A stretch of DNA of 64,000 bases, taken from contig JAAQVN010000001.1 in the NCBI GenBank assembly GCA_011754535.1, forward strand, positions 3,534,001 to 3,598,000. The letters are read 5' to 3'. Under the pieces are notes generated by a model that was given only the letters and a program-made list of their open reading frames with translations, was not told the DNA's origin and searched no databases. The translations under genes were made by a program, and so were the position numbers. Positions 1,799-60,079 of this stretch are shown here, in pieces. Numbering within the stretch: the stretch's first letter is position 1; each line of letters starts with the position of its first letter. The stretch comes from Enterobacter asburiae. GTDB taxonomy: Bacteria; Pseudomonadota; Gammaproteobacteria; Enterobacterales; Enterobacteriaceae.

Positions 1799-3703
1799 TT
1801 ATGCGTGTCCGCGCTCGCGCCACCAGGCGATAAGCTGCAGGTAATTGTCCCGGATGCGCGCCACCAGCTGCGCATCGTCAATATCGTGCTTCAGCCACGC
1901 GCGGGAGGCATCGCCAAACAGCGTGCGCCCCACGGCGAAGCCTTTTACCAGCGGCTGCCCCGCTGCGGCTTTGAAGCCGGCGCGCAGCTGTTCTGCCGGG
2001 GCGTCCAGGCCGAGGATCACCACCCCGCGGCAGTGCGGGTCCCGGCGGTCGATAATCTCGCTCAGCGCCGTCCAGCCGTCGGCGGAAAGCGGCGGCAGCT
2101 TCCACCAGTCCGGGTAGATGCCCAGGTTGTAGAAGCGGGAGATGGCGCGCAGGTAGAGCTCGTCGCTGCGCGGCATGGTCGCAGGCAGGATCACCTCCAG
2201 CAGCAGCTCGTGCCCGGACCGGCAGCAGGCGTGGTACACCTCGGCAATTTTCTGCTCCTGCTCCAGGCGCAGGCCGTGGGCATCTTCCGGATGGAAGAAG
2301 ACCAGACACTTCACCACGTGCTCCTGCGGCCAGCTGATAAGCTGGGTGCCGATGTTGCCGTGCTCCATCTCCAGCGGCCGGGAGCCCGGCAGCTCAATGG
2401 GGCGACCAATCCACCACCCTTCCCCGGTGATCGCGTTCAGCGCGTCCTGACCAAAGGTGCCGTCGCACAGCAAGCCCGCTTTGCCCTCCAGCCCGGCGCG
2501 GCTCGCCGCCTCGCGGCTGGCCTGCAGGATCAGCTGCTTCAGTGCCGGAATGCGCTTAAGCGACGCGCCGCACTGCATCGCCATATCCTCAAGCTGGCTG
2601 CGGTGATCGAAGGCCATCACGCACAGCTCCGGCCATTCGCGGCGGCGGGTGGTCACCCGGTGGAGATGGTTAAGACGCGGGTCGAGATCCGGGCGCGGTA
2701 CGTTCGCGGCGCGGGAAAGATAGTCATCCAGCTCGATTTTGCTCGGCATGGCCGGGGCGCAGCCGTGGCGCGAGACCACCAGCGCGCCGCAGGCGTTGGC
2801 GTAGCGGCACGCCTGCTCCCAGCCCTCGTCGTTCAGGTAGCCGCGCAGCAGGCCGGACATAAACGCGTCCCCCGCGCCGAGGACGTTCAACACCTCCACG
2901 CGCACGCCGGTGACCGTCAGGCCGTCGTCCAGCCGGGGCGGAATGGCGTCGGTGTAGACCGAGCAGCCGAGCGCGCCGCGTTTGCAGACCAGCGCTGCGT
3001 CACTGACGGCGCGCACCTGCCCCAGCGCCTGCAGGGTATCCGTGCTGCCGCCCGCAATGTGAAACTCCTCTTCGGTGCCGACAATGACGTCGAAGAGGTG
3101 CAGCACCTCCTGCAGCTCGCGGGTGACCTTATCGGCGGCGATAAAGCGCGTTTCGCCGTCGCCTAAGGAGGTGAGCCCCCACAGCACCGGACGGTAGTCG
3201 ATGTCCAGCACCGTGCGCACGCCGTGACGGCGGGCATAGCCCAGCGCCGTCAGCACCGCCTCGCGGGTCTGAGGATGAGAAAGGTGAGTCCCGGTGATGG
3301 CAAGACAACGTGCGGAGGCAATGTAGCTTTCGTCCACATCGCTGGCCGTAATGGCCATATCCGCGCAGTTATCGCGATAAAAAATTAAGGGAAAGGTGTC
3401 CCGGTCTTTAATACCGAGTAGCACCAGCGCCGTGAGGCGTTGTTTATCGGTAATCAGATGGCTGGTATCGCAGCCCACCTGGTTGAGCTCTTCGCGCAGG
3501 AAGCGGCCCATATGTTCATCGCCAACGCGCGCCAGCATCGACGAGCGCAGGCCCTGGCGCGCGGTGCCGTACGCCACGTTGCCGGAGGATCCGCCGAGGT
3601 ATTTGGCGAAGCTCGACACATCTTCCAGGCGGGCACCAATCTGCTGGCTGTAGAGGTCTACCGCCACGCGGCCCATGCATATCACATCAAACTGCTTTTC
3701 CAC
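1799..3703 (-). CDS. iolC: Fused 5-dehydro-2-deoxygluconokinase (IolC) and DUF2090 aldolase-like domain
   Basis: At 634 residues this is about twice the length of a plain IolC. Residues 1 to about 320 are a PfkB-family sugar kinase: GGSSGNVAYGTARQG near the start and the catalytic signature NVLGAGDAFMSGLLRGY near residue 270. Residues from about 335 to the end form a DUF2090 domain, whose relatives act as 5-dehydro-2-deoxyphosphogluconate aldolases. No separate iolJ aldolase gene is present in the window, so the fusion probably supplies both the kinase and the cleavage step. Such fusions are known in proteobacterial inositol clusters. It lies 12 bp after the upstream dehydrogenase gene. Confidence 0.93.
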   Translation of the reverse strand: MEKQFDVICMGRVAVDLYSQQIGARLEDVSSFAKYLGGSSGNVAYGTARQGLRSSMLARVGDEHMGRFLREELNQVGCDTSHLITDKQRLTALVLLGIKDRDTFPLIFYRDNCADMAITASDVDESYIASARCLAITGTHLSHPQTREAVLTALGYARRHGVRTVLDIDYRPVLWGLTSLGDGETRFIAADKVTRELQEVLHLFDVIVGTEEEFHIAGGSTDTLQALGQVRAVSDAALVCKRGALGCSVYTDAIPPRLDDGLTVTGVRVEVLNVLGAGDAFMSGLLRGYLNDEGWEQACRYANACGALVVSRHGCAPAMPSKIELDDYLSRAANVPRPDLDPRLNHLHRVTTRRREWPELCVMAFDHRSQLEDMAMQCGASLKRIPALKQLILQASREAASRAGLEGKAGLLCDGTFGQDALNAITGEGWWIGRPIELPGSRPLEMEHGNIGTQLISWPQEHVVKCLVFFHPEDAHGLRLEQEQKIAEVYHACCRSGHELLLEVILPATMPRSDELYLRAISRFYNLGIYPDWWKLPPLSADGWTALSEIIDRRDPHCRGVVILGLDAPAEQLRAGFKAAAGQPLVKGFAVGRTLFGDASRAWLKHDIDDAQLVARIRDNYLQLIAWWRERGHA

Positions 3704-3715
3704 GTTGATACCTCA

Positions 3716-4849
3716 TCAGACAATGTCGTTCACGTTCAGCCAGCGGCCTTCCCGGTGCGAGAGCGCAATCGCGTCCAGCACGCGCGACACCTTCCAGCCC
3801 TCTTCGAAGTCCGGCCACATCGGCGCGTCGGCGGCAATGCCATCCACCAGGTCGCGCACTTCCACCGTTTTTTGATCGTTAAAGCCAATCCCGTGGCCCG
3901 CGCCCATGCAGAACGCGGCGTAGTCCGGGTGCGCCGGGCCGACGAGCAGCGTGCGGAACCCCTGACGGTTCACCGGATCGTCATGCAGATAAAGCTTCAG
4001 CTCGGCCATGCGCTCCTGGGTGAAGCTGATGGCGCCTTTCGTCCCGGTGATGACGTACGACAGCCCCATCTTGCGGCCGCAGGCAACGCGGGAGGTTTCA
4101 ATCACGCCCTGCGCACCGCCCGCAAAACGCACCATCGCGTGGGCCTGGTCCTCGTTTTCGACGGCAATCATCTCTGACGATCCGGCCTTCGCCGGGCGTT
4201 CAGGGACCACGATCTTCAGGTCGCCGCAGACCTGCTCGATATCCCCCACCAGGTACTGGGCCATATTGACGATATGCGCCGCGAGGTCGCCCAGCGCGCC
4301 CAGCCCGGCGGTCTCTTTAAAGCAGTGCCAGTGAATGGGAGCGCGCGGGTCGGCCATATAGTCTTCGTTGTGGGTGCCGTAGAAGTGGATCACTTCGCCA
4401 ATCTCGCCGCGGGCAATAATCTCCTTCGCCAGCTGCGCCGTTGGGTTCTTCATGTAGTTGAACCCCACCAGCGTTTTCACCCCGGCCCGCTTCGCGGCGT
4501 CGACCATCTCGCGCGCGTCGTGGGCGTTCAGCGCAAGCGGCTTCTCCGAGTAGACGTGCTTGCCGTGGCGGAGCGCCTCCAGCGCCATCTCTTTATGCAG
4601 GTGGTTGGGTGAGCAAATATCCACCACGTCAATGGCCGGGTCGGCCACCAGCGCCCGCCAGTCGCCCGTGGAACGGTTGAAGCCAAACGCCCGCGCGCGC
4701 TCTGCCGCCAGCTCCGGCGTGACTTCCGCCACCATCTCGCGCACCAGCCTGCCGCGCAAGTTGAACACCGTCGGGGCCTGGGCATAGGCGATAGCGTGCG
4801 CCTTGCCGATATACCCGGTGCCAATCAATCCAATACGAACCTCTTTCAT
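3716..4849 (-). CDS. Gfo/Idh/MocA-family oxidoreductase, second inositol dehydrogenase-like enzyme
   Basis: A 377-residue NAD(P)-dependent dehydrogenase. The N-terminal Rossmann fold shows GLIGTGYIGKAH at residues 6-17, and the EKP motif (YSEKPLAL, about residues 95-102) carries the family catalytic lysine. The start at 4849 has GAGG 6 bases upstream; an extra Met at 4861 is less likely. It is a paralogue of the iolG product at 8455-9441, longer and with a different C-terminal domain, so it may act on scyllo-inosose or another inositol isomer. The exact substrate cannot be read from sequence. Confidence 0.88.
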   Translation of the reverse strand: MKEVRIGLIGTGYIGKAHAIAYAQAPTVFNLRGRLVREMVAEVTPELAAERARAFGFNRSTGDWRALVADPAIDVVDICSPNHLHKEMALEALRHGKHVYSEKPLALNAHDAREMVDAAKRAGVKTLVGFNYMKNPTAQLAKEIIARGEIGEVIHFYGTHNEDYMADPRAPIHWHCFKETAGLGALGDLAAHIVNMAQYLVGDIEQVCGDLKIVVPERPAKAGSSEMIAVENEDQAHAMVRFAGGAQGVIETSRVACGRKMGLSYVITGTKGAISFTQERMAELKLYLHDDPVNRQGFRTLLVGPAHPDYAAFCMGAGHGIGFNDQKTVEVRDLVDGIAADAPMWPDFEEGWKVSRVLDAIALSHREGRWLNVNDIV

Positions 4850-5897: not shown

Positions 5898-7445
5898 TTA
5901 TGCCGCGTTCAGGGCGTTGTGGTTGATGGCCATCATCGTCATCAGCCGTTCTTCGTTAGCGTCGTCACCGTGGATCTCGCCGGTCACCCGGCCTTCGCTG
6001 AGGGTGATGATCCGGTCAGACACCGCCATCACTTCAGGCAGATCGGAGGAGATCACGATCACCGCCACGCCCTTTTTCGCCATGTCAAACAGCACCTGGT
6101 GCACTTCCGATTTGGTCCCCACGTCGATGCCGCGCGTCGGCTCATCGACGATCAGCACCCGCGGGTTAAGCGCCATGCAGCGCGCGAGGATCACCTTTTG
6201 CTGGTTGCCGCCGGAGAGCTTGCGCACCTCCTGCGCGCTGTTGACCATTTTGATCTGCAGCGCCTGGCGGTAGGACTCAATCAGATCGTCCTCTTTGCGG
6301 GTGTTCACGAACCAGCGCCACTGCAGCAGCGAGGAGAGACAGGAGAGCGACAGGTTGTCGCGAATCGACAGCCCCAGCACCGCCCCCTCTTTTTTGCGAT
6401 CTTCCGGCACCAGCGCCACGCCCTGGTCCAGGGCATACAGCGGGTCGCGCGGCTGGTACGGCACGCCGTCCAGCTCAAAGCTCCCCGAGGTAAACGCGTC
6501 TGCACCAAACAGGCAGCGCGCCACCTCGGTACGCCCCGCGCCCACCAGCCCGGCAATGCCTAATACCTCCCCGGCGTGGACGTGGAAGCTGATGTCGTGC
6601 AGGGCGATACCGTGCGGATCCAGCGGCGGCTTTTCGCGGCTCAGCCCCTTCACCGCCAGGCGGACGGGTTTGTCTTCATGATGGGTTTCGCTGGCGGGGC
6701 GGCGGTTAAAGGCCACGTCGCGCCCGACCATCAGTCGGATCAGCTGTTCGACGTTAGTCTCCGCCACCGCGCCGGTGCCGGTGAAACGGCCGTCCTGGAA
6801 AACGGTGAAGCGATCGCAGAGCTGGAAAACTTCGTGCAGACGGTGGGTAACATAAATAATGCTCACGCCGCGGTTTTTAAGCTCGCGCACCACGCGGTGC
6901 AGGCTTTCCACCTCGCTGTCGCTCAGCGCGGCGGAAGGTTCGTCCATGATGATTAACCGGGCGTTGAGGGTCAGCGCGCGGGCGATCTCCACCATCTGCT
7001 GCTGGGCGACGCTCAGACGGGCCACCGGCGTGGTCGGCGCAACGTTCAGTTGCAGGTAATCGAGAATAACCTGCGCCTCCTGGTTGACCGCCTTTTCGTC
7101 GACGATCAGGTTACGCCTGCGCGGCTCGCGCCCGAGAAACATGTTTTCCGCGACGGTCATGTTGGGCAGCAGGTTGAATTCCTGATAGATGGTGATAATG
7201 CCCTTGTTTTGACGTTCCACCGGGGAGTCGTCCACCGGCAGCGTTTCGCCGTTGAACCAGATATCCCCGCGGGTTTGCGGCTGCGCGCCTGCGAGCGCCT
7301 TCAGTAGCGTGGATTTTCCCGCCCCGTTTTCCCCCAGCAGGGCGTGGATCTCCCCCGCGCCGACGGTCAGTTGGGCGCTGCTCAGCGCCCAGACGCCGGA
7401 AAAGCTTTTTGCCAGGTCGGTCACTTTCAGTAAGGGTTGCGACAT
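5898..7445 (-). CDS. Sugar ABC transporter ATP-binding protein (RbsA/MglA type)
   Basis: A 515-residue double ATPase. The first cassette has Walker A GENGAGKST near residue 38 and Walker B LIIMDEPSAA near residue 163; the second has the LSGGNQQKV signature near residue 405 and VLIVDEPTRGIDVG after it, with a degenerate P-loop GLVGAGRTE near residue 290, as usual for CUT2 ATPases. The start at 7445 has GGAGGAG upstream. It drives the import of sugar, probably inositol, by the adjacent permease and binding protein. Confidence 0.93.
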   Translation of the reverse strand: MSQPLLKVTDLAKSFSGVWALSSAQLTVGAGEIHALLGENGAGKSTLLKALAGAQPQTRGDIWFNGETLPVDDSPVERQNKGIITIYQEFNLLPNMTVAENMFLGREPRRRNLIVDEKAVNQEAQVILDYLQLNVAPTTPVARLSVAQQQMVEIARALTLNARLIIMDEPSAALSDSEVESLHRVVRELKNRGVSIIYVTHRLHEVFQLCDRFTVFQDGRFTGTGAVAETNVEQLIRLMVGRDVAFNRRPASETHHEDKPVRLAVKGLSREKPPLDPHGIALHDISFHVHAGEVLGIAGLVGAGRTEVARCLFGADAFTSGSFELDGVPYQPRDPLYALDQGVALVPEDRKKEGAVLGLSIRDNLSLSCLSSLLQWRWFVNTRKEDDLIESYRQALQIKMVNSAQEVRKLSGGNQQKVILARCMALNPRVLIVDEPTRGIDVGTKSEVHQVLFDMAKKGVAVIVISSDLPEVMAVSDRIITLSEGRVTGEIHGDDANEERLMTMMAINHNALNAA

Positions 7446-7493
7446 CGGTCTGCTCCTCCTCATGATGAGCCGCCAAAGGCGGCTCGGGACATA

Positions 7494-8423
7494 TCAGTTA
7501 CCGGCCTCACCGATACGCTCAGCCTGCTGCAGGTTCTCTTTGGTGATCAGCGTCGGCGGGTAGTCGGCCCCGGTGATGGCTTTCTTCTCGCGCACGTTGG
7601 CCACCAGCTGGCTCATCGCCGTCTGCACCGCAAAGCCCGGACGCTGATCCGCCGTTACCGCCAGCCAGCCGTCGCGCACGCGGGCCAGCGCTTCCGGCAC
7701 CGCATCAAACCCGGTCACGAGGATCTCACCCGGCTTCACGCCCTGGCTTTGCAGCGCTTCAATCGCCCCCAGCGCCATGTCGTCGTTGGCGGAGAGGATC
7801 ACCTGCGGGCGTTTCGGCAGCGAGGGCAGCACGCTTTCAACGATGCGCATCCCTTCGGAACGCATCCAGTTGCCGGTCTGATCGGCGACGATCTTGTACT
7901 TATCCCCGCCCGCCTTCAGGCTGTCGCGGATCCCCTTAGTGCGTTCAATATTGGAGGAGGAGCCCGGCTGGCCGGTCAGCAGAATGATCTCCGCGCCGTC
8001 GGGGAATTTGGTTTTAACGAAGTCGCCAATCGCCTGGCCGCCCTTGTAGTTGTTGGCTCCAAAGTGCGGCACTTTCTTCTGGCTGTCGACGGAGCGGTCA
8101 AGGGTGACCACCGGCAGCTTCGCATCCTGAATTTCATCCACCGCGCTTGAGACCGCGTTGACGTCGTTCGGTGAGACGATAAAGCCCTGCGCCCCGCGGG
8201 TGATGGCGTTTTCCAGGTCAGCCACCTGCTTCGGTGAACTGCCCTGCCCGTCCAGTACCTGAAGCTTCACGCCCATCTCTTTTGCGGCTTTCACCGCCGT
8301 GCGCTGCATGTGAACTTCAAACGGCATCGCCAGGTTTGGCGTACTGAAAACAATCTGCTCGTTTTCGGCGAGGGCGGCCCCGGATGTCATGGCGATGAGG
8401 GCGGCTAAGATCAGTTTTTTCAT
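7494..8423 (-). CDS. Periplasmic sugar-binding protein of the inositol ABC transporter
   Basis: A 309-residue periplasmic binding protein 1-like domain protein. Residues 1-21 (MKKLILAALIAMTSGAALAE) are a clear Sec signal peptide with an ALA cleavage site, which fixes the start at 8423 although the frame stays open further upstream. The fold phrases GFIVSPNDVNAV near residue 87 and ILSANDDMALGAIEAL near residue 215 are typical of ribose/galactose/inositol binding proteins. It lies between iolG and the ATPase gene in the operon. Confidence 0.93.
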   Translation of the reverse strand: MKKLILAALIAMTSGAALAENEQIVFSTPNLAMPFEVHMQRTAVKAAKEMGVKLQVLDGQGSSPKQVADLENAITRGAQGFIVSPNDVNAVSSAVDEIQDAKLPVVTLDRSVDSQKKVPHFGANNYKGGQAIGDFVKTKFPDGAEIILLTGQPGSSSNIERTKGIRDSLKAGGDKYKIVADQTGNWMRSEGMRIVESVLPSLPKRPQVILSANDDMALGAIEALQSQGVKPGEILVTGFDAVPEALARVRDGWLAVTADQRPGFAVQTAMSQLVANVREKKAITGADYPPTLITKENLQQAERIGEAGN

Positions 8424-8454
8424 TATTATGTCTCTCTGTGTAGGGTTGGTGTGT

Positions 8455-9441
8455 TTAGAGGACGATCTCGCGCTGGCTGCGCAGCGACTCCAGCGCTTTA
8501 TCCGCAAGGTACAGCGCACGTTCACCATCATCGCCGCTGCAGTCAGGCACCGCTTCGCCGCGTAATACCGCAACAAAGTGCTCCCATTCCGCGGCGTAAG
8601 CGGATTTGTAGCGCTGCAGGAAGAAGTGTTCCGGCAGCGCGCTGGTGCAGCCCTGTTTGCCATAGTGCTGCACCTGGTTTTCCAGGATATTGCCCGCGCA
8701 CAGAAGGCCTTCGGAGCCGTGCAGCTCCAGGCGCTGGTCGTAGCCGTAAGATGAGCGGCGGCTGTTGACGATGGTCGCCATTGCGCCGGAGGCGTATTTC
8801 AGAACGATAAACGCGGTGTCGATATCCCCCGCCTCGCCAATCGCCGGATCCACCAGGTTGCTGCCCTGGGCATACACCGACACCGGCTCTTCGCCCATGA
8901 TGAAGCGGGCCATGTCGAAGTCGTGAATGGTCATATCGCGAAACATGCCGCCGGAGACGCGCACGTACTCTGCGGGCGGCGGAGACGGATCGCGGGAGAT
9001 GATCAGCAGCGATTCCGGTTTGCCGATGCGCCCGGCCTGGGCGTCGGTTTTCACGCGGCGGAACTGCGGGTCAAAGCGGCGGTTAAAGCCGATGAACAGC
9101 GGCACGTCGTACTCTTTAACCACCTTCAGGCAGTCGCGCACGCGGGCGAGGTCAAGGTGGACCGGCTTTTCGCAGAAGATAGCCTTGCCGTGGCGGGCGG
9201 CCATTTCAATCAGATCCGCGTGGGTATCGGTGGCGGAGGCGATCAGCACGGCGTGAACGTTAGGGTCGGTCATCGCCTCATCCAGGCTCTGCTGGCGGGC
9301 CTGATACTGCGCGGCGAGGCGGGTGGCAAATTCCTGATTCGGGTCAACCACGGACCAGAGCGTGGTCGCGCCGTGGCTGGCGATGTTAGCTGCATGTACC
9401 TGGCCAATTCGGCCAGCGCCCAGTAAAGCAATGTTAAACAT
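8455..9441 (-). CDS. iolG: Myo-inositol 2-dehydrogenase IolG
   Basis: A 328-residue Gfo/Idh/MocA enzyme with Rossmann motif LLGAGRIGQVH at residues 6-16 and the catalytic FCEKPVHL near residue 92. It oxidises myo-inositol to 2-keto-myo-inositol, the first step of the pathway. The phrase MTIHDFDMARFI near residue 170 holds the conserved Asp/His pair of the family. It is the first gene of the large leftward iol operon, behind a 289-bp regulatory spacer. Confidence 0.93.
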   Translation of the reverse strand: MFNIALLGAGRIGQVHAANIASHGATTLWSVVDPNQEFATRLAAQYQARQQSLDEAMTDPNVHAVLIASATDTHADLIEMAARHGKAIFCEKPVHLDLARVRDCLKVVKEYDVPLFIGFNRRFDPQFRRVKTDAQAGRIGKPESLLIISRDPSPPPAEYVRVSGGMFRDMTIHDFDMARFIMGEEPVSVYAQGSNLVDPAIGEAGDIDTAFIVLKYASGAMATIVNSRRSSYGYDQRLELHGSEGLLCAGNILENQVQHYGKQGCTSALPEHFFLQRYKSAYAAEWEHFVAVLRGEAVPDCSGDDGERALYLADKALESLRSQREIVL

Positions 9442-38450: not shown

Positions 38451-38746
38451 ACATTTTCCTCACCGGCCTCTTCGGCCATCTTCAGATACTGATCAGGGCA
38501 GTGCGTCATGACGCGCTGAAACAGAACCAGAGCCAGGTTGCGCTGCCCTTCGTTGAATGCTGTGATGTTCGGGTCTACGTTGAAGCAAGTACCGAACACC
38601 TGACCTTTCTCCAGCAGCGACCAGATGACGCGTCGGCCCTGCTCGCTACCCATGACGAACTGGATATCTTCGATATCGCGCTGAGCCAGAAGATCCTGCT
38701 TGGCTTCCAGTTCCGCTTTGCGTTCTTCATCGTCGATATACGTCAT
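38447..38746 (-). CDS. Conserved small phage protein downstream of portal
   Basis: A 99-residue protein (DLLAQRDIEDIQFVMGSEQGRRVIWSLLEKGQVFG) seen beside portal genes of podoviruses; several relatives have this size. It overlaps both neighbours by four bases, so it is translated with them. Function unknown. Confidence 0.7.
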   Translation of the reverse strand: MTYIDDEERKAELEAKQDLLAQRDIEDIQFVMGSEQGRRVIWSLLEKGQVFGTCFNVDPNITAFNEGQRNLALVLFQRVMTHCPDQYLKMAEEAGEENV

Positions 38747-40413
38747 TGCTGCGCCGCTCCTGCTGCGTTAGTGAGAGCGGTAAGCGCGCTTGGGTCAGTG
38801 GTCTGCGTCTCGCTGAGTGTCTTGGCACCCTGCGCTGCTGCCATGCCCATCTGCATGGCCTGCACCTGCTGAGCCTGTTTGGCTCGCTCTTCGCGAATGC
38901 CCTGCACCTGCTCCTGCGGAACGATGACGGTTGGCGATACGCCGGACATTTCCGAGAACGCGTCGATAGCCTGATCCACGTCGAGCTTGTCGAGTGCTTC
39001 AGGTTTGAACTGTGCGAGCTGGCCGATAAAGCCAACGGTCTGCGACAGGCTTGTGAGGCCAATAGATTTCTGCGCCTGCGCCATAACGGAGATGTATTCG
39101 ATGCGCAGCGGCATGCCCTGCATAACATCAGGCGGAGGCGGCAGCATGTTCTTGCGAGCCATAATGGAGAACACGCGATCGATAAGCGGGTTGAGCGCTT
39201 CGTCGTTCAGGCGCTCCAGTACCGGTCCGAGCATCAGCAGCTTCTCTTCCTTCATCTCGATCACCGCTTCCACCGGCATAGAGCGGGTGTTGATGTTCTG
39301 AAGCATCATGAAGAGGTCAACAAAGTAGGCGCTGTTGATGGTCTGGCGGGTGTCCTGAATGTCAGCCAGCAGGTCGGCGGTGTTCGGGTTGACCAGGTAA
39401 GCAGGTTTGAAGCCATCCTGACCGCTCAGCACGTCGAGGTATGTCACATCACCTGGCAGCAGGGAAACGCGCTGATTCTTCAGCGACGTCGGCGCAACCA
39501 TCGGAGGGTTGGTGGCCTTGTCGATCAGCTGAGCTTTACGCTTCTGCTCAACCTGAAGGGCTTTAACCTGACCGAGTGCCAGCATGCCAGGGCAGGAGGA
39601 CGCATAAACGTCCTCGCCGTTCACTTCCCAGCGCGGCGCCAGGATCGGGAATTCATCAAAGCCGGATTCGCGCAGCAACTTGTCGGAGTCGCCGCCGGTC
39701 TCGAAATAGACAGAGCGGAACGGCTTGTTCTTGCTGTCCATCTTGCCGCTGTCACGGTTGATGTTTGGCGTGATGCAGTGGTTAACCTCGATCCAGTTTT
39801 CATACGTGCCGCTTTCCCACTGGCTCTTCACGGACGCGCTCACGTTGTCCAGTCCGAACTCCTGCACCAGCTGGCGCACGGTCATGGAGAACTGACGGAA
39901 GGATGTGTCAACGCTGCCGCGCGGGCTGTTCGCCAGGTAGTAGCTGCCAATCGGGAATGGCATTGTGCGGATCACGTCCTGGTCATCTTCGAGCACAGCC
40001 ATGGCTGCGGTGCCGAAAGTACCCAGGCTGGCGTACATAACGGGCAGAGACTGGTACAAATTCGACTTGTTGAACACTTCGTTCATGCGGCGCTGCACGA
40101 CTTCCAGCCAGATTTTCACCGGGCCGTAATCCATCATGTCAGGGTCAGGCGTAGCAAGCTTGAACCACGGACGGGCCGGACTGGTGATGCCTGACATCAT
40201 GCCACTGGACAGGATGCGCTGAGCCATTGAGCCGGTCGGGTCAACAATTTTGGTGTTGCGGCGATCATCACGGTTAACGTCAGACGTCAGGAAGCGGGAA
40301 CCGCGCGGATTGATAAAGTCGCTCAGGTCGCGCCAGTGCGGCTCGAACGATGTGCGCTCACTCTTCAGCTGTGCGAGCTGCTTCAGCAGCCGCTCTTTTT
40401 CGGTTTCCGCCAT
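38743..40413 (-). CDS. Portal (head-tail connector) protein
   Basis: A 556-residue protein of the podoviral portal family: KSERTSFEPHWRDLSDFINPRGSRF near residue 16, MMSGITSPARPWFKL near residue 73, and a helical C-terminus rich in Gln and Ala. It forms the twelve-fold ring for DNA packaging. It is preceded by a small gene 14 bp upstream. Confidence 0.92.
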   Translation of the reverse strand: MAETEKERLLKQLAQLKSERTSFEPHWRDLSDFINPRGSRFLTSDVNRDDRRNTKIVDPTGSMAQRILSSGMMSGITSPARPWFKLATPDPDMMDYGPVKIWLEVVQRRMNEVFNKSNLYQSLPVMYASLGTFGTAAMAVLEDDQDVIRTMPFPIGSYYLANSPRGSVDTSFRQFSMTVRQLVQEFGLDNVSASVKSQWESGTYENWIEVNHCITPNINRDSGKMDSKNKPFRSVYFETGGDSDKLLRESGFDEFPILAPRWEVNGEDVYASSCPGMLALGQVKALQVEQKRKAQLIDKATNPPMVAPTSLKNQRVSLLPGDVTYLDVLSGQDGFKPAYLVNPNTADLLADIQDTRQTINSAYFVDLFMMLQNINTRSMPVEAVIEMKEEKLLMLGPVLERLNDEALNPLIDRVFSIMARKNMLPPPPDVMQGMPLRIEYISVMAQAQKSIGLTSLSQTVGFIGQLAQFKPEALDKLDVDQAIDAFSEMSGVSPTVIVPQEQVQGIREERAKQAQQVQAMQMGMAAAQGAKTLSETQTTDPSALTALTNAAGAAQQ

Positions 40414-40427
40414 CTCTGCGCGCTCCG

Positions 40428-40634
40428 TTACTGACCGAGCAGCGTTTTACCGCTGGTGTTGGCTGCGGAGGTGTCGCCCTGGGCGCCAGTCAGCATTGTC
40501 GATTTGGTGCCTGCTGCTGCGCGGCGGCGGCGCTCTTCGTCATCGCGGGCACTGACCACAGCGGCGTCCTGCTCCTGAGGTGCGGCCTGGACTTCTGGTG
40601 CCGCTGGCACTGATGGCTTGCTGCCGATACACAT
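40428..40634 (-). CDS. Small protein upstream of portal
   Basis: A 68-residue hydrophilic protein that begins MCIGSKPSVPAAPE and is rich in Ala/Arg/Glu. Similar short MC-x-G-x-K proteins stand next to portal genes in podoviruses. The start at 40634 is preferred over an in-frame Met at 40652. Confidence 0.65.
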   Translation of the reverse strand: MCIGSKPSVPAAPEVQAAPQEQDAAVVSARDDEERRRRAAAGTKSTMLTGAQGDTSAANTSGKTLLGQ

Positions 40635-40662
40635 AGCGATAACCTCACACACGATTAAATTA

Positions 40663-40739
40663 TTACCAATTTAACCATATACGGATTATTTTACGTAGTG
40701 TATTGACAGAATGCCGTGCAATTATTACCCTTCAGGTAA
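40663..40739. promoter_or_regulatory. Promoter/operator region between the portal operon and the structured RNA
   Basis: It holds a perfect operator TTACC-CTTCA-GGTAA at 40725-40739, the repeat CCATATACGG at 40675-40684, a half site TTACC at 40663, and TTGACA at 40703-40708 on the plus strand. The plus -10 would overlap the operator (TACCCT at 17-bp spacing is weak). A minus-strand start for the portal operon (TTGCAC then TACGTA) is also possible. Confidence 0.55.
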
Positions 40740-41032
40740 CACAACATGAAAGCGCACTTCGATATCGGTTCTGTGAGGTCTTGTCGCTAAATCAAACTGG
40801 TGAGTGCGCTTCCAGGTGTGAGCAGTACGGCATATGGCACATGTGCCGCAGCGGTCCGGAGGGGTTCCTTGGTTTCCTTACCCCCGAGCGGGTAGCCGGA
40901 ATGTGCAAGTCAGTGTTATCGGTATGCACGACATGACGACTCACCATCGTGGCGATACGGTGTGACACCTCGGAAGAGACGAGGATACAACGATGAGAGC
41001 ATTTTTGGGGTGTCGGTGGTGCATTGGTTGAC

Positions 41033-41078
41033 GCGTGGGTTATTCCCACCGAAGAAAGGTTCGATTCCTTTCCCGCGC
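41033..41078 (+). ncRNA. tRNA-like acceptor/T-arm minihelix
   Basis: GCGTGGG (41033-41039) pairs with CCCGCGC (41072-41078) over 7 bp. AAAGG (41055-41059) pairs with CCTTT (41067-41071) over 5 bp and closes the 7-base T-loop TTCGATT. The two stems abut exactly as in a tRNA acceptor/T-arm stack. A 15-base linker replaces D and anticodon arms. No CCA end is encoded. Confidence 0.5.
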
Positions 41079-41253
41079 CCACAAAAGTGCTTTCAATGTT
41101 GTGGAAACACAACACCACACCTTAGTGGGGTGGACAGTAACATTGAACGGGTATATCCCGTATTGCTGAAGGGTCTAAACAGCCCAGACGCCACGGTAAG
41201 CAAGCCGTGTTACCGAATTGCTGACAGCCTGGAAAGACAGGCACACAACAGGT

Positions 41254-41321
41254 AAGAGCATTGAGCGATGTCGGAGATCGCCATTCTTGGTAGAGGGTTC
41301 GAATCCCTACTCAGTGCTCTT
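41254..41321 (+). ncRNA. Second tRNA-like domain with anticodon-like hairpin and T-loop
   Basis: A 12-bp stem (41254-41265 with 41310-41321, one G-U pair) encloses a hairpin CGAT-GTCGGAG-ATCG (41266-41280) with a 7-base loop and a T-arm-like hairpin GGG-TTCGAAT-CCC (41295-41307). The loop GTCGGAG has T at the U33 place. There is no D arm, the acceptor-like stem is too long and no CCA end is seen, so it is not a normal tRNA. Confidence 0.5.
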
Positions 41322-41652
41322 TCCGTTGTGGTGAATGCGCAGGCTGATGCGCACCAAGATCGAAACGTAAGTCGCTATGCGCAGTGATAGATGGTATGCG
41401 CGGTGTACCCGCACAAGGTCTGGTAAGTGCCATCCAGAAGGCCGGAGTTCAGCACCGGCCACCACACACAAAATCACGCCTTAGGACCGTGATACGGCAG
41501 TACCAAGCAATGCGTGTAGCTTTGGCGGTGGCAGTTGCTCCCACTTCTGACCACCGTCCTTTTTACAGCAGAGCGCCATTCCGATGACGTTGCGCTGTAA
41601 ACCCTGCATCACCCGCCAAGGAAGGCACTCCGTAGACCCTTGCTTCCAGTTC

Positions 41653-41677
41653 GCCCGGTTCGTCCGGGCATTTTTTT
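41653..41677 (+). terminator. Intrinsic terminator of the structured RNA
   Basis: GCCCGG-TTCGT-CCGGGC (41653-41669) followed by A and seven T. The strength and strand of this site are the best evidence for a discrete rightward transcript. Confidence 0.8.
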
Positions 41678-41689
41678 AAGGTGAAAATC

Positions 41690-41965
41690 ATGGTATCAAC
41701 CGCATCCCCGGCCCCCTCATGCATGGCTATCGAGCGGGAAATTCAGGCCAAAGAATCATCAGCTATTGAGTACCTTGAGTCTTTAATGTCTCATGATACT
41801 TATGCGAGGATGGTTATTGCAGCGCTCAGGAATGGTGCTATTACTGAACAACAGGCCATCGTTCAGTACATGAATATTCAGAAACAAAGAGCAGATCATT
41901 ACGAAAGTGAGCTAATTAAGACTATCCAAAGATCGCCATCTGTTACGCCAGTTTTCAAACCGTGA
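41690..41965 (+). CDS. Small rightward protein of unknown function between structured RNA and terminase
   Basis: A 91-residue helical hydrophilic protein (EIQAKESSAIEYLESLMSHDTYARM). AAGGTG stands before the ATG at 41690; a GTG at 41681 is the other possible start. It follows the RNA terminator by 12 bases, so it may depend on readthrough or on its own promoter. It faces the terminase gene. Confidence 0.65.
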   Translation: MVSTASPAPSCMAIEREIQAKESSAIEYLESLMSHDTYARMVIAALRNGAITEQQAIVQYMNIQKQRADHYESELIKTIQRSPSVTPVFKP

Positions 41966-41973
41966 CATGTCAC
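41962..41973. repeat. GTGACATGTCAC palindrome, copy 2
   Basis: The palindrome includes the TGA stop of the small rightward gene. Confidence 0.6.
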
Positions 41974-41977
41974 AATC

Positions 41978-42003
41978 AGCCCGCCGGCGTGCGGGCTTTG
42001 TTA
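41978..42003 (+). terminator. Terminator between convergent genes
   Basis: AGCCCGC (41978-41984) and GCGGGCT (41991-41997) followed by TTGTTATTT on the plus strand. It ends the small rightward gene, and its T-rich tail reaches the terminase stop codon. Confidence 0.65.
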
Positions 42004-43476
42004 TTTCCACGGGTCATATTCAGTCACGGCCTTGCCCTGCTGGCTCTCCTGCCCAGGAATGCGTAGCCGTTTCGTAACCGGGAAAGCAAACGTCAGCAGC
42101 AGCGCGTCACCCTTGCCAGGCGAGCGGCCTAAACGCTCTTTGATATCTTCCTTCGGCTCAATGACGATCTTGCCGTCAACCCTGACTTTGTACTCTGCCG
42201 CAGACAGGTCATCGGCAGTCTCCTGATCGTCCAGCGCGCCGCCAAGTTTCAGCCAAGTTTTGCAGCTGTTGAACATCTCGCCGCGCTTGTTGAGCATCTG
42301 TGGGTCGGTAGAGCCGCCACCGAACGGGATTAGCTGCCACGTCCGGCCCCAGCCGTCACCGATGGACTTAAGCCCGGTGCCGTAGCCAAAGTCGATAAAC
42401 ACCGCGTCAGCCTGGTACTGATCCTCAAAGTCAGCGATGCGCTTCGCCATAATCAGATCGTCGGTGGTCTTGTTGCCGGTCCAGAGCACTTTGCTGTGCA
42501 GCCCCTGCCGCAGGTATATCACCGCGTCATCCACGCCAGAATACGCCGGGTCGACGCCGATAATAACCGGAGCGTGCGCCACCTGCGCAGCGGTCACTAC
42601 GCGCTTCATTGCCTCGTCGGTCAGGCCGGTCGGGATAAACTGCAGTTCTGACGCGTCAGGGAAGATCCCCCTCACACGGACCTTCACGAAGTCGCTGTCC
42701 TCGCCGTAGTCATCCACCCATTTCTGGAGCTGCTGCTTGTTGGTTCCTTCGACGGTGCGGCTGTCAATCTGTGCGCACTTCCAGCGGTGCTTGTACTTGC
42801 GGAAGCATTCGCGGAAACGCCCGGTGTTACGCGTCGGGTTCCCGAACGCCACCCAGATGATTTCCGTGTCTTCGTCCGTCAGCGCACCCTCGGCAACCTC
42901 CCACACCAGATCGGCAATATTGGACGCTTCGTCGAATACCACGATGATGCGCTTACGCTCGTTGTGCAGGCCGGCGAACGCCTCGGTGTTGTGCTCAGAC
43001 CACGGTATAGCGTCAGCGCGCCAGCGTTTGTCGTGGCCCGGATCGTTGCTGTACATCGCCGTGGCGGTGCAGGTGAACCACTCTTTCGTGATAGCCAGGT
43101 TCGACCATTTGATAATTTCCGGCCAGGTCTTGGTGCGCAGCTGGTTGTCGGTGTTGGCGGTCACCACCACCTTGCAGTCCTCGCAGGTGGACATGCCCCA
43201 GTTGATGAGCATCGAGATGAACGCCGATTTGCCGATGCCGTGGCCGGATGCGCGGGCAATCATGATTGGCTGATAACGAGTGGAAGGGTTTTGCAGGTGA
43301 TCGCGTATTTCCCGGAACCCATCAGCCTGCCATTTACGCGGCCCTGTGGCGTGCGCCAGCTCTGTCCCCTCCTCTCCCCACGGGAACGCATACAGCGCAT
43401 AGCCCAGCGGGTCGTGCGTGAACGAGGCGATATCCTCGACGAGCTGCTCTTCCGGAGACATGGCTGCGGCTGTCAT
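42001..43476 (-). CDS. Terminase large subunit
   Basis: A 491-residue packaging motor. Walker A is ASGHGIGKSA near residue 76, Walker B with catalytic Glu is IIVVFDEAS near residue 180, and the nuclease domain starts at VIIGVDPAYSG near residue 293 with a second acid in AVFIDFGYGTG near residue 355. Its ATG overlaps the small-subunit stop by four bases. Confidence 0.93.
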   Translation of the reverse strand: MTAAAMSPEEQLVEDIASFTHDPLGYALYAFPWGEEGTELAHATGPRKWQADGFREIRDHLQNPSTRYQPIMIARASGHGIGKSAFISMLINWGMSTCEDCKVVVTANTDNQLRTKTWPEIIKWSNLAITKEWFTCTATAMYSNDPGHDKRWRADAIPWSEHNTEAFAGLHNERKRIIVVFDEASNIADLVWEVAEGALTDEDTEIIWVAFGNPTRNTGRFRECFRKYKHRWKCAQIDSRTVEGTNKQQLQKWVDDYGEDSDFVKVRVRGIFPDASELQFIPTGLTDEAMKRVVTAAQVAHAPVIIGVDPAYSGVDDAVIYLRQGLHSKVLWTGNKTTDDLIMAKRIADFEDQYQADAVFIDFGYGTGLKSIGDGWGRTWQLIPFGGGSTDPQMLNKRGEMFNSCKTWLKLGGALDDQETADDLSAAEYKVRVDGKIVIEPKEDIKERLGRSPGKGDALLLTFAFPVTKRLRIPGQESQQGKAVTEYDPWK

Positions 43477-51836: not shown

Positions 51837-52427
51837 ATGAAAAGTATTCAGGATATCCGCAGGCAGAATATTAACGATATCATCGACCGTGACTTTAACG
51901 GGGTGCAGACTCGTCTGGCGGAAAAACTGGGAACTCAGGCAAACCTGGTGAACCGCTGGGCCCGCGGGCAGAAGGTTGTCGGCGACACGGTGGCGCGCAA
52001 GATTGAGAAGGCAGCGAACAAGCCGTCGAACTGGCTGGATGTCGACCACTCATTATCTGCTGTTGCCATCCCCCATGAGGAGATCACTCCTTCCGACATC
52101 GGGCAGCTGGCGGCACATAACCTTGAAGCGTGGATGCAGAACAACCGCGACCTGTCATCTCAAGGAAAGGTGTCGAAAGCGTCCGGCGTTGCCCAGGCTA
52201 CAATCCAGCGCATGCTGAACAATGAAGTCAGCGTTTCTATCTCCACCCTGGAGTCCATCGCCAGCGCGTTTGGCCGCCGCGGCTATGAGCTGCTCATCCA
52301 TCCCCGCGACCCGGCGACCATCCATTACGACCGGGCACGCTACGCGTTGTTACCTGAGAGCGAGAAAAGCAAGATCGAGAGCTACGTCGATTTTGTGATT
52401 GTTCATAACGGTAAAGCGCAAGAGTAA
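51837..52427 (+). CDS. Phage repressor (CI-like) with two HTH segments and no cleavage domain
   Basis: A 196-residue protein. The first HTH lies at about residues 24-55 (RLAEKLGTQANLVNRWARGQK), the second at about 108-140 (VSKASGVAQATIQRMLNNEVSVSISTLESIA). No S24 peptidase motif (Ala-Gly site, Ser, Lys) can be seen in the C-terminal part, so it should not self-cleave with RecA. It is monocistronic, with operators on both sides. It probably holds the lysogenic state through the TTACC-N5-GGTAA sites. Confidence 0.85.
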   Translation: MKSIQDIRRQNINDIIDRDFNGVQTRLAEKLGTQANLVNRWARGQKVVGDTVARKIEKAANKPSNWLDVDHSLSAVAIPHEEITPSDIGQLAAHNLEAWMQNNRDLSSQGKVSKASGVAQATIQRMLNNEVSVSISTLESIASAFGRRGYELLIHPRDPATIHYDRARYALLPESEKSKIESYVDFVIVHNGKAQE

Positions 52428-57055: not shown

Positions 57056-58309
57056 CTAATCCTTTCCTTCCATCCACCTCTCAAACTTCGACGGGGAGAA
57101 CGGCACCAGATCGGTGTGCTCCCCGTTAATCCAGGCATCAACCATATCCGCCCACTGCTGCAACATATAGGCGCGCTGCCGGGCATACTCCGCTTTGTTG
57201 TACACCGCGCGCACGCCCTTCTGCTCATGCGCCTGCGCCTTCTCGATCCAGTCTGAAGGATAATCCGCTTCGTGCAGCAGCGTGCTTGCCGTCCGGCGCA
57301 GGTCATGCACGGTGAAGTCATGTATCTTCTCACCGTCTTTGTTTATTGTCTCCACGGTCCGGTCGATAAGGGAGTTCAGCGCGGCATTCGATAATGGCTT
57401 GCGGAAGTTGTAGCGCCCGGGCACTAGGTATTCACTGCCACCAGCGCACATCTGCAATCCCACCAGCAAATCCTGCGCCTGCTTCGGCAGATAAATCACA
57501 TGCGCCCGCCTGGCCTTCATTCGGTCAGCGGGGATCGTCCATGTCCAGTTCCTGAAATCGATCTCTGCCCACGTCGCGTAGGTGAATTCGCTTTTTCGCA
57601 CAAGCGTCAGCAGTACCAGCTTGAGAGCCATCTTCATGGTGCCCATCGCGCCGATGTCATCCAGCGCGCGGAAGAAAATGCCGATCTCCTCAGGCGACAA
57701 CGTGCGCTCGCGCGGCTTAAACATGGCAATGGATGATGGCTTAATGTCGGCAGCCGGATTGAACAAACCGTGACCGCGGTCGTTGGCGTACCGGTACACG
57801 CTGCTGATTATCTCCCTGACCTGGATCGCAGTCGCCCGGCCGCCACGTTCTACGATGCGATCGCACAGGTCGCGCACCACTCTGGTGGTTATCTCAGTCA
57901 TCATCTTGTTGCCGAGCGCCGGGAGGATATCACGCTCAATCACCGCCTGTTTCATGGCGCGAGTGCTGTCGGCCAGGGTGACGTATTTCATGTAGGCGTC
58001 GGTATATACCGCGAATGTTTCTGCCCCGGCAATTTGCCTGATACCGTCACGTTTCGCCGCAGCAGGCGACTGGCCTGCCATCAGCAACTTTTTGGCGGCA
58101 ATAAGTTCCTCGCGCGCTTCGGCAAGGCTGATACCGTCACGACCGTACTGGCCGATAACCAGCGTTTCCCGGCGGCCGTTAATTCGGTAGTCATAGCGGA
58201 ACGAGACAGAGCCTGACGTGAGCACGGCGACATACAGCCCGTCACGGTCGGAAACCTTGTACAGTTTCTCCTGAGGCTTGAGGTTTTTCAGTTTGGTATC
58301 GGTAAGCAC
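57056..58309 (-). CDS. int: Tyrosine integrase
   Basis: A 417-residue P4-type integrase: N-terminal DUF4102 arm-binding domain (LTDTKLKNLKPQEKLYKVSDRDGLYV), core-binding domain, and a catalytic domain with Arg in VRKSEFTYATW near residue 230, His-x-x-Arg in VHDLRRTAST near residue 325 and Tyr in VRAVYNKAEY near residue 362. It recombines attP with the guaA end. Its 5' end faces attR. Confidence 0.93.
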   Translation of the reverse strand: MLTDTKLKNLKPQEKLYKVSDRDGLYVAVLTSGSVSFRYDYRINGRRETLVIGQYGRDGISLAEAREELIAAKKLLMAGQSPAAAKRDGIRQIAGAETFAVYTDAYMKYVTLADSTRAMKQAVIERDILPALGNKMMTEITTRVVRDLCDRIVERGGRATAIQVREIISSVYRYANDRGHGLFNPAADIKPSSIAMFKPRERTLSPEEIGIFFRALDDIGAMGTMKMALKLVLLTLVRKSEFTYATWAEIDFRNWTWTIPADRMKARRAHVIYLPKQAQDLLVGLQMCAGGSEYLVPGRYNFRKPLSNAALNSLIDRTVETINKDGEKIHDFTVHDLRRTASTLLHEADYPSDWIEKAQAHEQKGVRAVYNKAEYARQRAYMLQQWADMVDAWINGEHTDLVPFSPSKFERWMEGKD

Positions 58310-58351
58310 AATTCACCCATAAAGCATCCATATTTTTGTCGGTATGAGAGT

Positions 58352-58366
58352 ATACCTTTCGGGTAA
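58352..58366. promoter_or_regulatory. Operator-like site upstream of int
   Basis: ATACC-TTTCG-GGTAA, one base off the palindrome, 43 bases before the integrase ATG. Confidence 0.6.
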
Positions 58367-58431
58367 TACCGTCACCTGTACCGTCGAAAAAAGTGGTGTA
58401 GAGTGAATAGATATGAGTAGATATAAACAAA

Positions 58432-58455
58432 AACCCTCTTCGATTACAGAGGGTT
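58432..58455 (-). terminator. Phage-supplied terminator downstream of guaA
   Basis: AACCCTCT (58432-58439) and AGAGGGTT (58448-58455), with T-rich TTTTTGTTT following on the minus strand. It lies about 50 bases past the guaA stop and stops guaBA transcripts before int. Confidence 0.75.
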
Positions 58456-58500
58456 AGAGATGAAACTGAATAGATATGATGTGCTATGAACTAGCTATAC

Positions 58501-58516
58501 ATCATTCCCATTCAAT
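58501..58516 (+). repeat. attR core within guaA
   Basis: ATCATTCCCATTCAAT. On the minus strand it encodes the last residues of GuaA (IEWE) and the TGA stop, so integration keeps guaA whole. Confidence 0.9.
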
Positions 58517-60079
58517 CGTAGCCGGTGGCTTACCGCTGATGTCATATACGACCCGCGATATGCCATTGACTTCATTAATTATTCTGTTAGACACGCGGCC
58601 TAAGAAGTCATACGGCAAGTGCGCCCAGTGCGCGGTCATGAAGTCAATGGTTTCCACCGCACGCAGGGAAACAACCCAGTCGTACTTACGGCCATCGCCC
58701 ATTACGCCGACGGAGCGAACCGGCAGGAACACGGTGAACGCCTGGCTCACTTTGTTGTACAGGTCAGCTTTGTGCAGCTCTTCGATGAAGATCGCGTCCG
58801 CGCGACGCAGCAGGTCGCAGTACTCTTTCTTCACTTCACCCAGCACGCGCACGCCCAGACCCGGGCCCGGGAACGGGTGACGGTAGAGCATGTCATACGG
58901 CAGACCCAGTTCCAGACCGATCTTGCGCACTTCGTCTTTGAACAGCTCGCGCAGCGGCTCAACCAGGCCCATCTTCATCTCTTTCGGCAGCCCGCCCACG
59001 TTGTGGTGAGATTTGATGACGTGTGCTTTACCGGTGGCGGATGCGGCAGACTCGATCACGTCAGGGTAGATAGTACCCTGCGCCAGCCACTTCACGTCGT
59101 CCAGCTTCAGCGCTTCTTCGTCGAACACTTCAACGAACACGCGACCGATGATCTTACGTTTCGCTTCCGGATCGTTCTCGCCTTTCAGCGCGTCCAGGAA
59201 GCGCTGCTCGCCTTCCACGTGAACGATGTTCAGACCGAAGTGGTCGCCGAACATGTCCATAACCTGCTTAGCTTCGTTGAGACGCAGCAGACCGTTGTCC
59301 ACGAAGACGCAAGTCAGGTTTTTACCGATGGCGCGGTGCAGCAGCATCGCGGTCACGGAGGAGTCCACGCCGCCGGAGAGACCGAGGATCACTTTGTCAT
59401 CGCCAACCTGCTGGCGGATACGCTCAACGGCATCGTCGATGATTTTTGCCGGGGTCCACAGGGCTTCACACTGGCAGATGTCACGCACGAAGCGCTCCAG
59501 CATGCGCATACCCTGACGGGTGTGAGTCACTTCCGGGTGGAACTGTACGCCGTAGAAGCGTTTTTCTTCGTTCGCCATGATGGCGAACGGGCAGCTTTCG
59601 GTGCTGGCAACGGTCACGAAGTCAGACGGGATGGCGGTAACTTTGTCGCCGTGGCTCATCCACACGTCCAGCAGCGGTTTGCCGTCTGCGGTCAGGGAGT
59701 CTTCGATACCGCGCACCAGCGCGCTGTCGTTAACCACTTCAACCTGTGCATAGCCGAACTCGCGCTCGCTGGAGCCTTCTACGTGGCCGCCCAGCTGCAT
59801 GGCCATGGTCTGCATGCCGTAGCAGACGCCGAATACCGGCACGCCAGCTTCGAACACGTACTGTGGCGCGCGCGGGCTGTTCTCTTCGGTGGTACTTTCC
59901 GGGCCGCCGGACAGGATGATGCCGCTTGGATTGAATTCGCGAATCTGTGCTTCCGTGACATCCCACGCCCACAGCTCACAGTAAACGCCCAGTTCACGTA
60001 CGCGACGCGCCACCAGCTGAGTGTACTGAGAACCGAAGTCCAGGATGAGAATGCGATGTTTATGAATGTTTTCCGTCAT
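58502..60079 (-). CDS. guaA: GMP synthase (glutamine-hydrolysing)
   Basis: A 525-residue full-length GuaA. The N-terminal amidotransferase has [10 protein letters not shown] near residue 84 (nucleophile Cys) and a His-Pro-Glu in FHPEVTHT near residue 181. The ATP-pyrophosphatase loop is LSGGVDSSV near residue 235, and the C-terminal dimer domain ends IEWE. It converts XMP to GMP. The 3' end is the phage attachment site. Confidence 0.97.

Follow-up and report, generated by a model that had tools for sequence, protein, structure and literature searches.

We have identified, on the plus strand of a prophage in Enterobacter asburiae, what looks like a single RNA gene of ~0.94 kb, at ~40735–41677 of the 64,000-nucleotide stretch analysed here (the window). 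Two conclusions are well supported: that this is one terminator-ended, non-coding RNA gene behind a phage-repressor operator motif, and that its RNA belongs to a large mosaic family of phage RNAs assembled from exchangeable folded modules. We regard it as nearly certain that the region specifies a functional structured RNA. For our best overall explanation, which adds to this modular RNA gene a mechanism in which the RNA acts as a scaffold, we estimate a probability of about 0.5.

A structured region without a supported gene

The prophage is of the epsilon15/Uetakevirus kind and sits in an enterobacterial chromosome, and Uetakevirus supplies the phage records that match the region best. Approximately 1 kb without a supported gene lies between the head-tail connector gene and the terminase position (Table 1). 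Because both neighbours are on the minus strand, a plus-strand transcript would be antiparallel to both, as an initial annotation made from the letters alone had claimed. Its description of the region as gene-free and structured also holds. The longest open reading frame (ORF) in the stretch is 108 amino acids, and a Pfam search of four ORFs (67–108 amino acids) gave no match. Aligned stretches from seven homologues place gaps of 1 or 2 nucleotides (nt) in three of the four, so that the frame is not kept, and alignment of the fourth (294 nt) reaches at most its first 47 nt in these homologues. A protein-coding gene was therefore rejected. The plus strand folds at −376.8 kcal/mol, compared with −321.3 kcal/mol (standard deviation 8.4) for 20 dinucleotide shuffles (z −6.6), and the minus-strand fold is weaker (z −3.7 against dinucleotide shuffles). 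The arms of ~28 and ~20 pairs had no equivalent in 20 mononucleotide shuffles of the region.

Most of the RNA is accounted for by arms, hairpins, a linker, a tRNA-like module (TLS) and two further modules, C and H. Arm 1 has kin in phages mEp390 and BUCT708 (74% identity). Model R1, which describes the TLS, was applied to the window and 199 of 334 loci, hand-picked with some near-duplicates left out, and later to three more loci; model R2, for module C, was applied to 100 loci, plus 18 loci and the window. R2 matches the window at 40815–40994 with 180.6 bits, the window being among its training sequences. We propose a kiss between the D-loop and T-loop of the TLS (GCTGA × TCAGC). Where arm 3 ends and the TLS starts is ambiguous, as one and the same TGT has possible partners both in arm 3 and on the 3' side of the acceptor. 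Both T-loop arms of the initial annotation were recovered, inside the inserts of arms 2 and 3, and the second is an exact match (14/14) to the T-arm of a host tRNA-Gln. The hairpin that had been described as GAAA-capped exists (E2), although its loop is the six-nucleotide GAAAGA rather than a GAAA cap; it has a sibling, E1, with the loop GAAGAGA. Hairpins of the E1/E2 type recur in phage BUCT708 (L011; loci are cited by our own numbers), where several of the form stem-GGAAAGA-stem follow one another at ~1937–2600, with a loop that we take to be reminiscent of phage boxB loops.

Table 1. Features of the window RNA and its neighbours (window positions; strand given where assigned)
Feature	Position	Strand	Remarks
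Head-tail connector gene	38743-40413	minus	Pfam match PF12236
TTGACA, possible -35 element	40703-40708	+	Putative promoter; sole element recognised
Phage-repressor operator motif, TTACC-CTTCA-GGTAA (TTACC-N5-GGTAA)	40725-40739	+	5' edge of the RNA
Arm 1 (module B)	40741-40820	+	Helix AAGCGCACT/AGTGCGCTT around a variable insert
Module C	40828-40963	+	Hairpins and two proposed pseudoknots, GCACAT x ATGTGC and CACC x GGTG
Hairpin E1, CCTCG-GAAGAGA-CGAGG	40968-40984	+	3/5 pairs changed on both sides; 97% of cells paired
Arm 2	40987-41102	+	~28 pairs, allowing 2 mismatches and one bulge
T-arm 1	41055-41071		Inside the arm 2 insert
Linker common to phage P1	41147-41227	+	76.8% identity over 82 columns to L005
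Hairpin E2, GCCTG-GAAAGA-CAGGC	41227-41242	+	Hairpin type recurs in relatives
Arm 3	41245-41329	+	~20 pairs
T-arm 2	41293-41309		Inside the arm 3 insert
TLS	41327-41466	+	R1 match, 85.3 bits (window a training sequence); acceptor 41327-41333/41460-41466, D-arm 41337-41352, variable insert 41353-41440, T-arm 41441-41459
Module H, 3' domain	41469-41652	+	Hairpins 41473-41493, 41524-41559, 41562-41601
Intrinsic terminator	41653-41677	+	Stem 41653-41669, U-tract to 41677
Terminase position	42001-43476	minus	No Pfam match; named from annotated relatives

Signals at the two ends

The perfect operator claimed for the 5' edge is confirmed as a repeated motif, present in the window in 8 exact and 4 one-mismatch copies (12 against 0.64 expected). 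Copies stand on both sides of a regulator gene with a Cro/CI-type helix-turn-helix (HTH), at 51837–52427, which likely encodes the prophage repressor. The same gene combines a YdaS-like N-terminal match, below the cut-off, with an HTH_3 C-terminal domain. In the annotated epsilon15 genome, the corresponding stretch has sites for repressor binding, IHF and RNase III and also a terminator, and there too a TTGACA precedes the operator shortly. A promoter scan returned no plus-strand sigma-70 match. The RNA proper probably starts near 40735, rather than at the 40640 first proposed, and 40640–40734 may be leader or promoter. The proposed 3' end at 41677 stands, at a strong plus-strand terminator whose stem shows double changes in two of its six pairs (RNAalifold, module H alignment).

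Covariation and common strand

The initial annotation's reading of the region as a large structured RNA is supported by helices that covary in module C, the arms and module H, and weakly in the TLS. For module C, we aligned 20 sequences (alignment A4: 18 of 19 distinct units, with L001 and L015). Paired cells reached 97.7%, compared with 92.0% after shuffling, and covariation 0.216, compared with 0.105, values that none of 500 shuffles equalled. Nine pairs were changed on both sides, giving 33 double-change cells against 7.8 in shuffles (0/500 as high); the measure of further pair types was not unusual (91/500). When the structure was slid along the alignment as a control, only 28–42% of cells paired. 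RNAalifold drew 32 pairs for the module, 12 of them with double changes; this program makes no pseudoknots and paired part of the GCACAT loop otherwise. The CACC × GGTG pseudoknot has one double change. Module H, aligned from 12 of 18 3' ends (alignment A5; six, either truncated or built differently at the 3' end, were left out), gave 36 pairs by RNAalifold, 8 with double changes, terminator stem included.

Pairing in the arms was assessed from 138 matches, of which 133 had enough upstream sequence and 122 were distinct. The 22 nt around the TLS start and the 3' side of the arm pair with upstream sequence beyond the 99th shuffle percentile in 80 of these 122 units, with a mean score of 31.3 for their own partners, compared with 22.2 for swapped partners and 20.6 for shuffles. 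Arms of L280, L281 and L063 have little sequence likeness to those of the window, yet score 42–50. Additionally, TLS units found by R1 have acceptors rebuilt by compensatory change in L021, L307, L309, L314 and L315, including ATTGGATG/CATCCAAT (L021), GGGGACTG/CAGTCCCC (L307) and AATTGGTG/CACCAATT (L314), and D-stems rebuilt as GCCA/TGGC (L309) and GCGG/CCGC (L314). We consider these units more telling than counts of pairs in the TLS alignment.

In each of the 17 loci with both an R1 and an R2 match (10 + 7, window included; the loci are not mutually independent), the two share a strand. This common strand is kept despite a different order of TLS and module C in L268 and P1, as expected of RNA modules.

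Constant flanks, variable inserts and links to tRNAs

The flanks of the TLS insert are almost invariant, including the 3' half, which is outside the search pattern, and the inserts themselves differ: most phages carry a different insert in the anticodon region. Arm inserts were collected from 81 units scoring 29.4 or more for the helix, of which 64 are distinct; their median length is 46 nt (range 23–167). Thirteen of the 81 contain a T-arm, defined as a stem of 4 bp enclosing TTCRANN, compared with a mean of 0.12 and a maximum of 3 in 500 shuffled sets. Matches to tRNAs of the insert's own genome with a score of at least 13 were found for 11 of the 64 distinct inserts, against 2/128 shuffles and 0/64 reverse complements. 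In Massilia (L264), a whole tRNA-Gly is the arm insert. In L265, the insert has a 13-nt exact match, GGGCTCATAACCC, to the anticodon arm of tRNA-Met(CAT), which we read as the initiator; other inserts match the D-arm of tRNA-Leu (L017) and several T-arms. The sequence GGGCTCATAACCC is present in L265 and L010, and the comparison with host tRNA-Met covered L265. Lookalikes of a CAT anticodon stem-loop stand in or beside arms at 3631 in L265, 2382 in L010 and 6947 in L036, and further ones at 5696 in L273 (minus strand) and at 3051 and 3331 in L005.

Complete tRNA genes are also associated with the modules. A tRNA-Arg occupies the place of the TLS in SPN9TCW, phiv142-3 and KPC3phi13.3 (that of phiv142-3 is annotated on the other strand, and ARAGORN calls it on the module strand). 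Among 108 distinct modules, taken from 137 matches with the window excluded, 12 have a same-strand tRNA gene no more than 600 nt away and none has one on the opposite strand, compared with 1.7 expected from random placement. These associations, and the RNase III site annotated in epsilon15's short version, would suit a leader or processing scaffold for phage tRNA genes, in which arms and hairpins guide RNase cleavage and stabilize tRNAs that have been lost or have degenerated here. We consider this quite improbable, as 96 of the 108 modules have no such tRNA gene and the window retains scaffold and covariation without a tRNA.

It could further be argued that no functional RNA exists, and that the region is a graveyard of decayed tRNAs or a set of DNA-level recombination linkers between phage mosaics; the tRNA pieces, and constant flanks around unrelated inserts, agree with such a history. 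This is hardly credible given compensatory changes in several modules, the common strand, the operator motif, the terminator and a plus-strand fold stronger than that of the minus strand. The narrower candidate, decayed tRNA only, was rejected because ARAGORN called no tRNA and no tmRNA in the window and covariation is present.

Comparison with known RNA families

The whole window gave no match at gathering score in a cmscan against Rfam 15. A permissive scan of 40000–42200 (E ≤ 5) returned six matches far below cut-off, among them tmRNA fragments (15 and 17 nt, <10 bits), with no GOLLD, ROOL or STnc100; STnc100, whose cut-off is 47 bits, had no match over 41300–41700 even at E ≤ 10. RyhB, DicF, TLS-PK1 and the other weak matches of these scans all scored far under their cut-offs. 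With no covariance-model match near cut-off, assignment of the region to GOLLD, ROOL or any other Rfam family was rejected, and the initial view that the RNA could not be assigned to a family and may be new is supported. Our search of the open-access literature found no larger modular phage RNA of similar kind, which is not proof of absence in print.

Few natural RNAs are as elaborate as GOLLD and ROOL, whose function is not settled. The initial annotation had likened the region to them, and the likeness holds for size, elaborate fold, phage or prophage origin, predicted lytic expression and, in some relatives but not in the window, tRNA genes near or inside the RNA; it does not extend to a match with their Rfam models, at gathering score, in the window or in 24 relative loci. 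An assembly of the GOLLD or ROOL type, in which the RNA would oligomerize into an ordered particle holding tRNAs, ribosomes or other cargo, gains some appeal from the tRNAs that GOLLD linkers sometimes contain and from the rise of GOLLD expression during lysis, both described in the available part of PMC12286853. Ordered particles need, by our reasoning, fixed contacts between chains, whereas the window RNA belongs to a mosaic of swappable modules with hypervariable tips, in which module content, order and number vary by phage. We think such an assembly unlikely.

The closest likeness is to STnc100. By eye, the window TLS shares its layout: GGTG and CACC form an outer helix, GAAT comes next, a D-like hairpin and a variable middle part follow, and a T-like hairpin of 5 bp closes on the outer helix (STnc100 consensus: GGTGAAT, D-like hairpin, variable middle, CCGGG-AGGCA-CCCGG, CACC). 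A unit of phage P1 (L005 3374–3497) is matched both by R1 (34.6 bits) and by the STnc100 model RF02076 (33.4 bits, E 1.3e-5, below the 47-bit cut-off, and thus without an Rfam report at gathering score), which links the TLS and STnc100 types. Additionally, the relative in phage Magnus carries, ~1.3 kb downstream of its TLS, a same-strand Rfam match to STnc100 (RF02076). The two differ in the T-like loop (AGTTCAGCA in the window, AGGCA in STnc100) and in the D-loop. RF02076 models an RNA of 206 nt whose own terminator follows the fold directly, whereas the window TLS is one of several modules in ~0.94 kb and the terminator lies 187 nt past it, beyond module H. A tRNA, or the tRNA-like domain of tmRNA, likewise has an acceptor, D-arm and T-arm in this layout, with complementary D- and T-loops; the TLS differs in having a long insert where the anticodon arm would be and no complete cloverleaf called by ARAGORN or the tRNA model RF00005.

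STnc100 is treated as a stand-alone small RNA (sRNA) in the accessible portions of PMC5331693, PMC12370729 and PMC13192938. The first describes reads from STnc100 copies in strain EDL933, one copy being confirmed by Northern blot; the second places STnc100 in vesicles and on Stx2 phages, with a hypothetical function; and the third, a 2026 preprint, relates STnc100 to the PasD sRNAs, found on Hfq by RIL-seq (RNA interaction by ligation and sequencing), and describes base-pairing sRNAs with different seeds and distinct targets. With the shared layout and the doubly matched P1 unit, these reports favour an array of base-pairing sRNAs, in which the tips would be seeds for target mRNAs and the conserved modules would stabilize the RNA and recruit Hfq or ProQ. 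Long complements between inserts and the remainder of their own locus were not in excess: complements of at least 14 nt were found for 0/81 arm tips and 0/71 TLS inserts (0.0 and 0.33 per shuffled set), and the mean longest complement was 8.9 and 9.0 nt, compared with 8.6 and 8.8 nt in shuffles, in a search confined to the locus itself, with 800 nt masked on each side. As some tips are, in addition, themselves tRNA-like, we hold an sRNA array to be rather unlikely; both it and a GOLLD-like assembly are nonetheless serious competitors of our preferred explanation.

Distribution across phages, plasmids and genomes

Related sequence was found in 345 of 50,697 phage records (blastn, E ≤ 0.01), with a best query coverage of 77%; among the matches listed, many of the weakest are just ~30–45 nt. 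On plasmids, 606 of 72,556 records match at E ≤ 1e-5, 502 of them from Escherichia, and 976 of 5,426 complete E. coli genomes match 40980–41475, none reaching 80% of the query. Carriers include P1, the lambdoid phages mEp390 and mEp460, and Taipeivirus, Jilinvirus, Jedunavirus and Lastavirus phages. Parts of the window RNA thus occur in virulent phages as well as in P1 and lambdoid ones. A local comparison with 18 annotated relatives shows that the order, number and partners of modules vary.

Beyond these carriers, the GTDB species collection has a 24-base TLS pattern in 40 stretches, some of which are from Massilia, Janthinobacterium, Xenophilus, Hahella, Aeromonas and a metagenome-assembled genome of Desulfonatronovibrio. 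Phage genes adjoin the pattern in three of four loci checked: repressor and RecT genes (Massilia L264), a terminase gene (L302), and primase and repressor genes (Hahella L280). In Janthinobacterium L279, two ORFs tested gave no PHROG match. With E-values that come from short calibrations, R1 matched 10 of 295 genomes of the order at E ≤ 0.01 (seven below 1e-6, own genome included) and 23 of 398 genomes of the phylum (five below 1e-10, own genome included), and R2 matched 2 of the 295 at E ≤ 0.001, own genome included. We treat R1 matches of ~24–30 bits in distant genomes, several of them ~45 nt long, as chance.

Phage P1 (L005, NC_005856) carries arms at 2362–2440 and 2801–2885, TLS units at 3113–3214 and 3374–3497 and a C module at 4308–4504, the tciABC genes and a tRNA lying between the second TLS unit and the C module. 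A tRNA-Asn and a tRNA-Thr stand between its modules, and its copy of the window linker is upstream of both. The C1 operator and the P1ban promoter are annotated upstream of the modules, at 1964–1993. Two annotated minus-strand genes, plp and upl (2769–3338), overlap the plus-strand arm at 2801–2885 and the TLS at 3113–3214; these may not be real genes.

Three further observations concern relatives and the prophage itself. Klebsiella phage UPM 2146 (L387) has 3.3 kb without annotated genes at 5907–9241, in which one TLS and one arm were found; the stretch precedes five tRNA genes that have small ORFs among them, structural genes to its left are on the opposite strand, and the adjoining small gene and the right-hand genes are on the same strand. 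In phage Tyrion (L014), an Rfam int-alpA (RF02996) lies on the plus strand at 2751–2815, downstream of the RNA region. Within the window, a phage integrase gene (PF00589) directly adjoins a guaA-like GMP synthase gene at 57056–60079, so that the prophage probably ends there.

Discussion

Under our preferred explanation of a modular RNA gene acting as a scaffold, the RNA, which the initial annotation predicted to be silent in the lysogen, would accumulate in stable form when repression lifts, its conserved parts would fold and hold, and its variable arm tips and TLS insert would display ligands. The tips would then engage host factors that recognize tRNAs, chiefly to counter phage-defence enzymes that cleave tRNAs, as decoys or as substitute substrates. 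The likeliest role, in our view, is engagement of such factors: pieces of tRNA or whole tRNAs form some of the tips, and tips change between phages over constant clamps. A precedent is offered by phage tRNAs, which protect against the tRNA-cleaving defences retron-Eco7 and PrrC according to the part of PMC11555353 available. The full version, a lytic-phase scaffold whose swappable, partly tRNA-mimicking tips serve as decoys or replacements against such defences, is possible, if somewhat unlikely as stated.

Several observations weigh against this explanation. Most arm tips (68/81) have no T-arm, and at a lower score threshold of at least 11 the matches to own-genome tRNAs (13/64) are barely above those of the controls (11/128 shuffles and 7/64 reverse complements). 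No conserved CCA end was seen by eye after the TLS, and for the invariant GCACAT × ATGTGC pseudoknot the sole basis is conservation with complementarity. Pairing in the TLS alignment (A1: 55 sequences, with 17 of 72 distinct units left out as long or odd) exceeds that of shuffles by a small margin (97.9% compared with 97.0%; four double-change pairs; 0/500 as high), and the proposed kiss between its loops has no double-change pair. The margin is small because the sequences were chosen by an exact 24-base pattern, and this seeding makes the invariant 5' half partly a matter of construction. As shuffles throughout preserve column make-up and leave relatedness in, their counts are not probabilities. 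In P1, a terminator-like hairpin (L005 2154–2173) lies between the C1 operator with P1ban and the first arm at 2362, so that P1 supports repressor control only given read-through. The published account of STnc100 and PasD as base-pairing sRNAs speaks for the sRNA array instead.

More generally, we tentatively suggest that these RNAs form a cartridge system, in which constant clamps (the arm helix, the TLS and the pseudoknot module) hold cargo that is swapped between phages and displayed by RNA alone during the lytic cycle. If so, the cargo would comprise intact tRNAs, tRNA fragments such as the tRNA-Met anticodon arm and T-arms, and unrelated folded inserts, and the platform would be a fast-evolving one, directed against host defences or at steering host translation.

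These findings describe an apparently unlisted and widespread group of RNAs in phages of model enterobacteria. As P1 and other temperate carriers can be induced and cut in laboratory strains, function is directly testable. The STnc100 and PasD sRNAs would gain a structural context, and the design of constant clamps and variable cargo with embedded tRNAs suggests counter-defence or translation control at the level of RNA.

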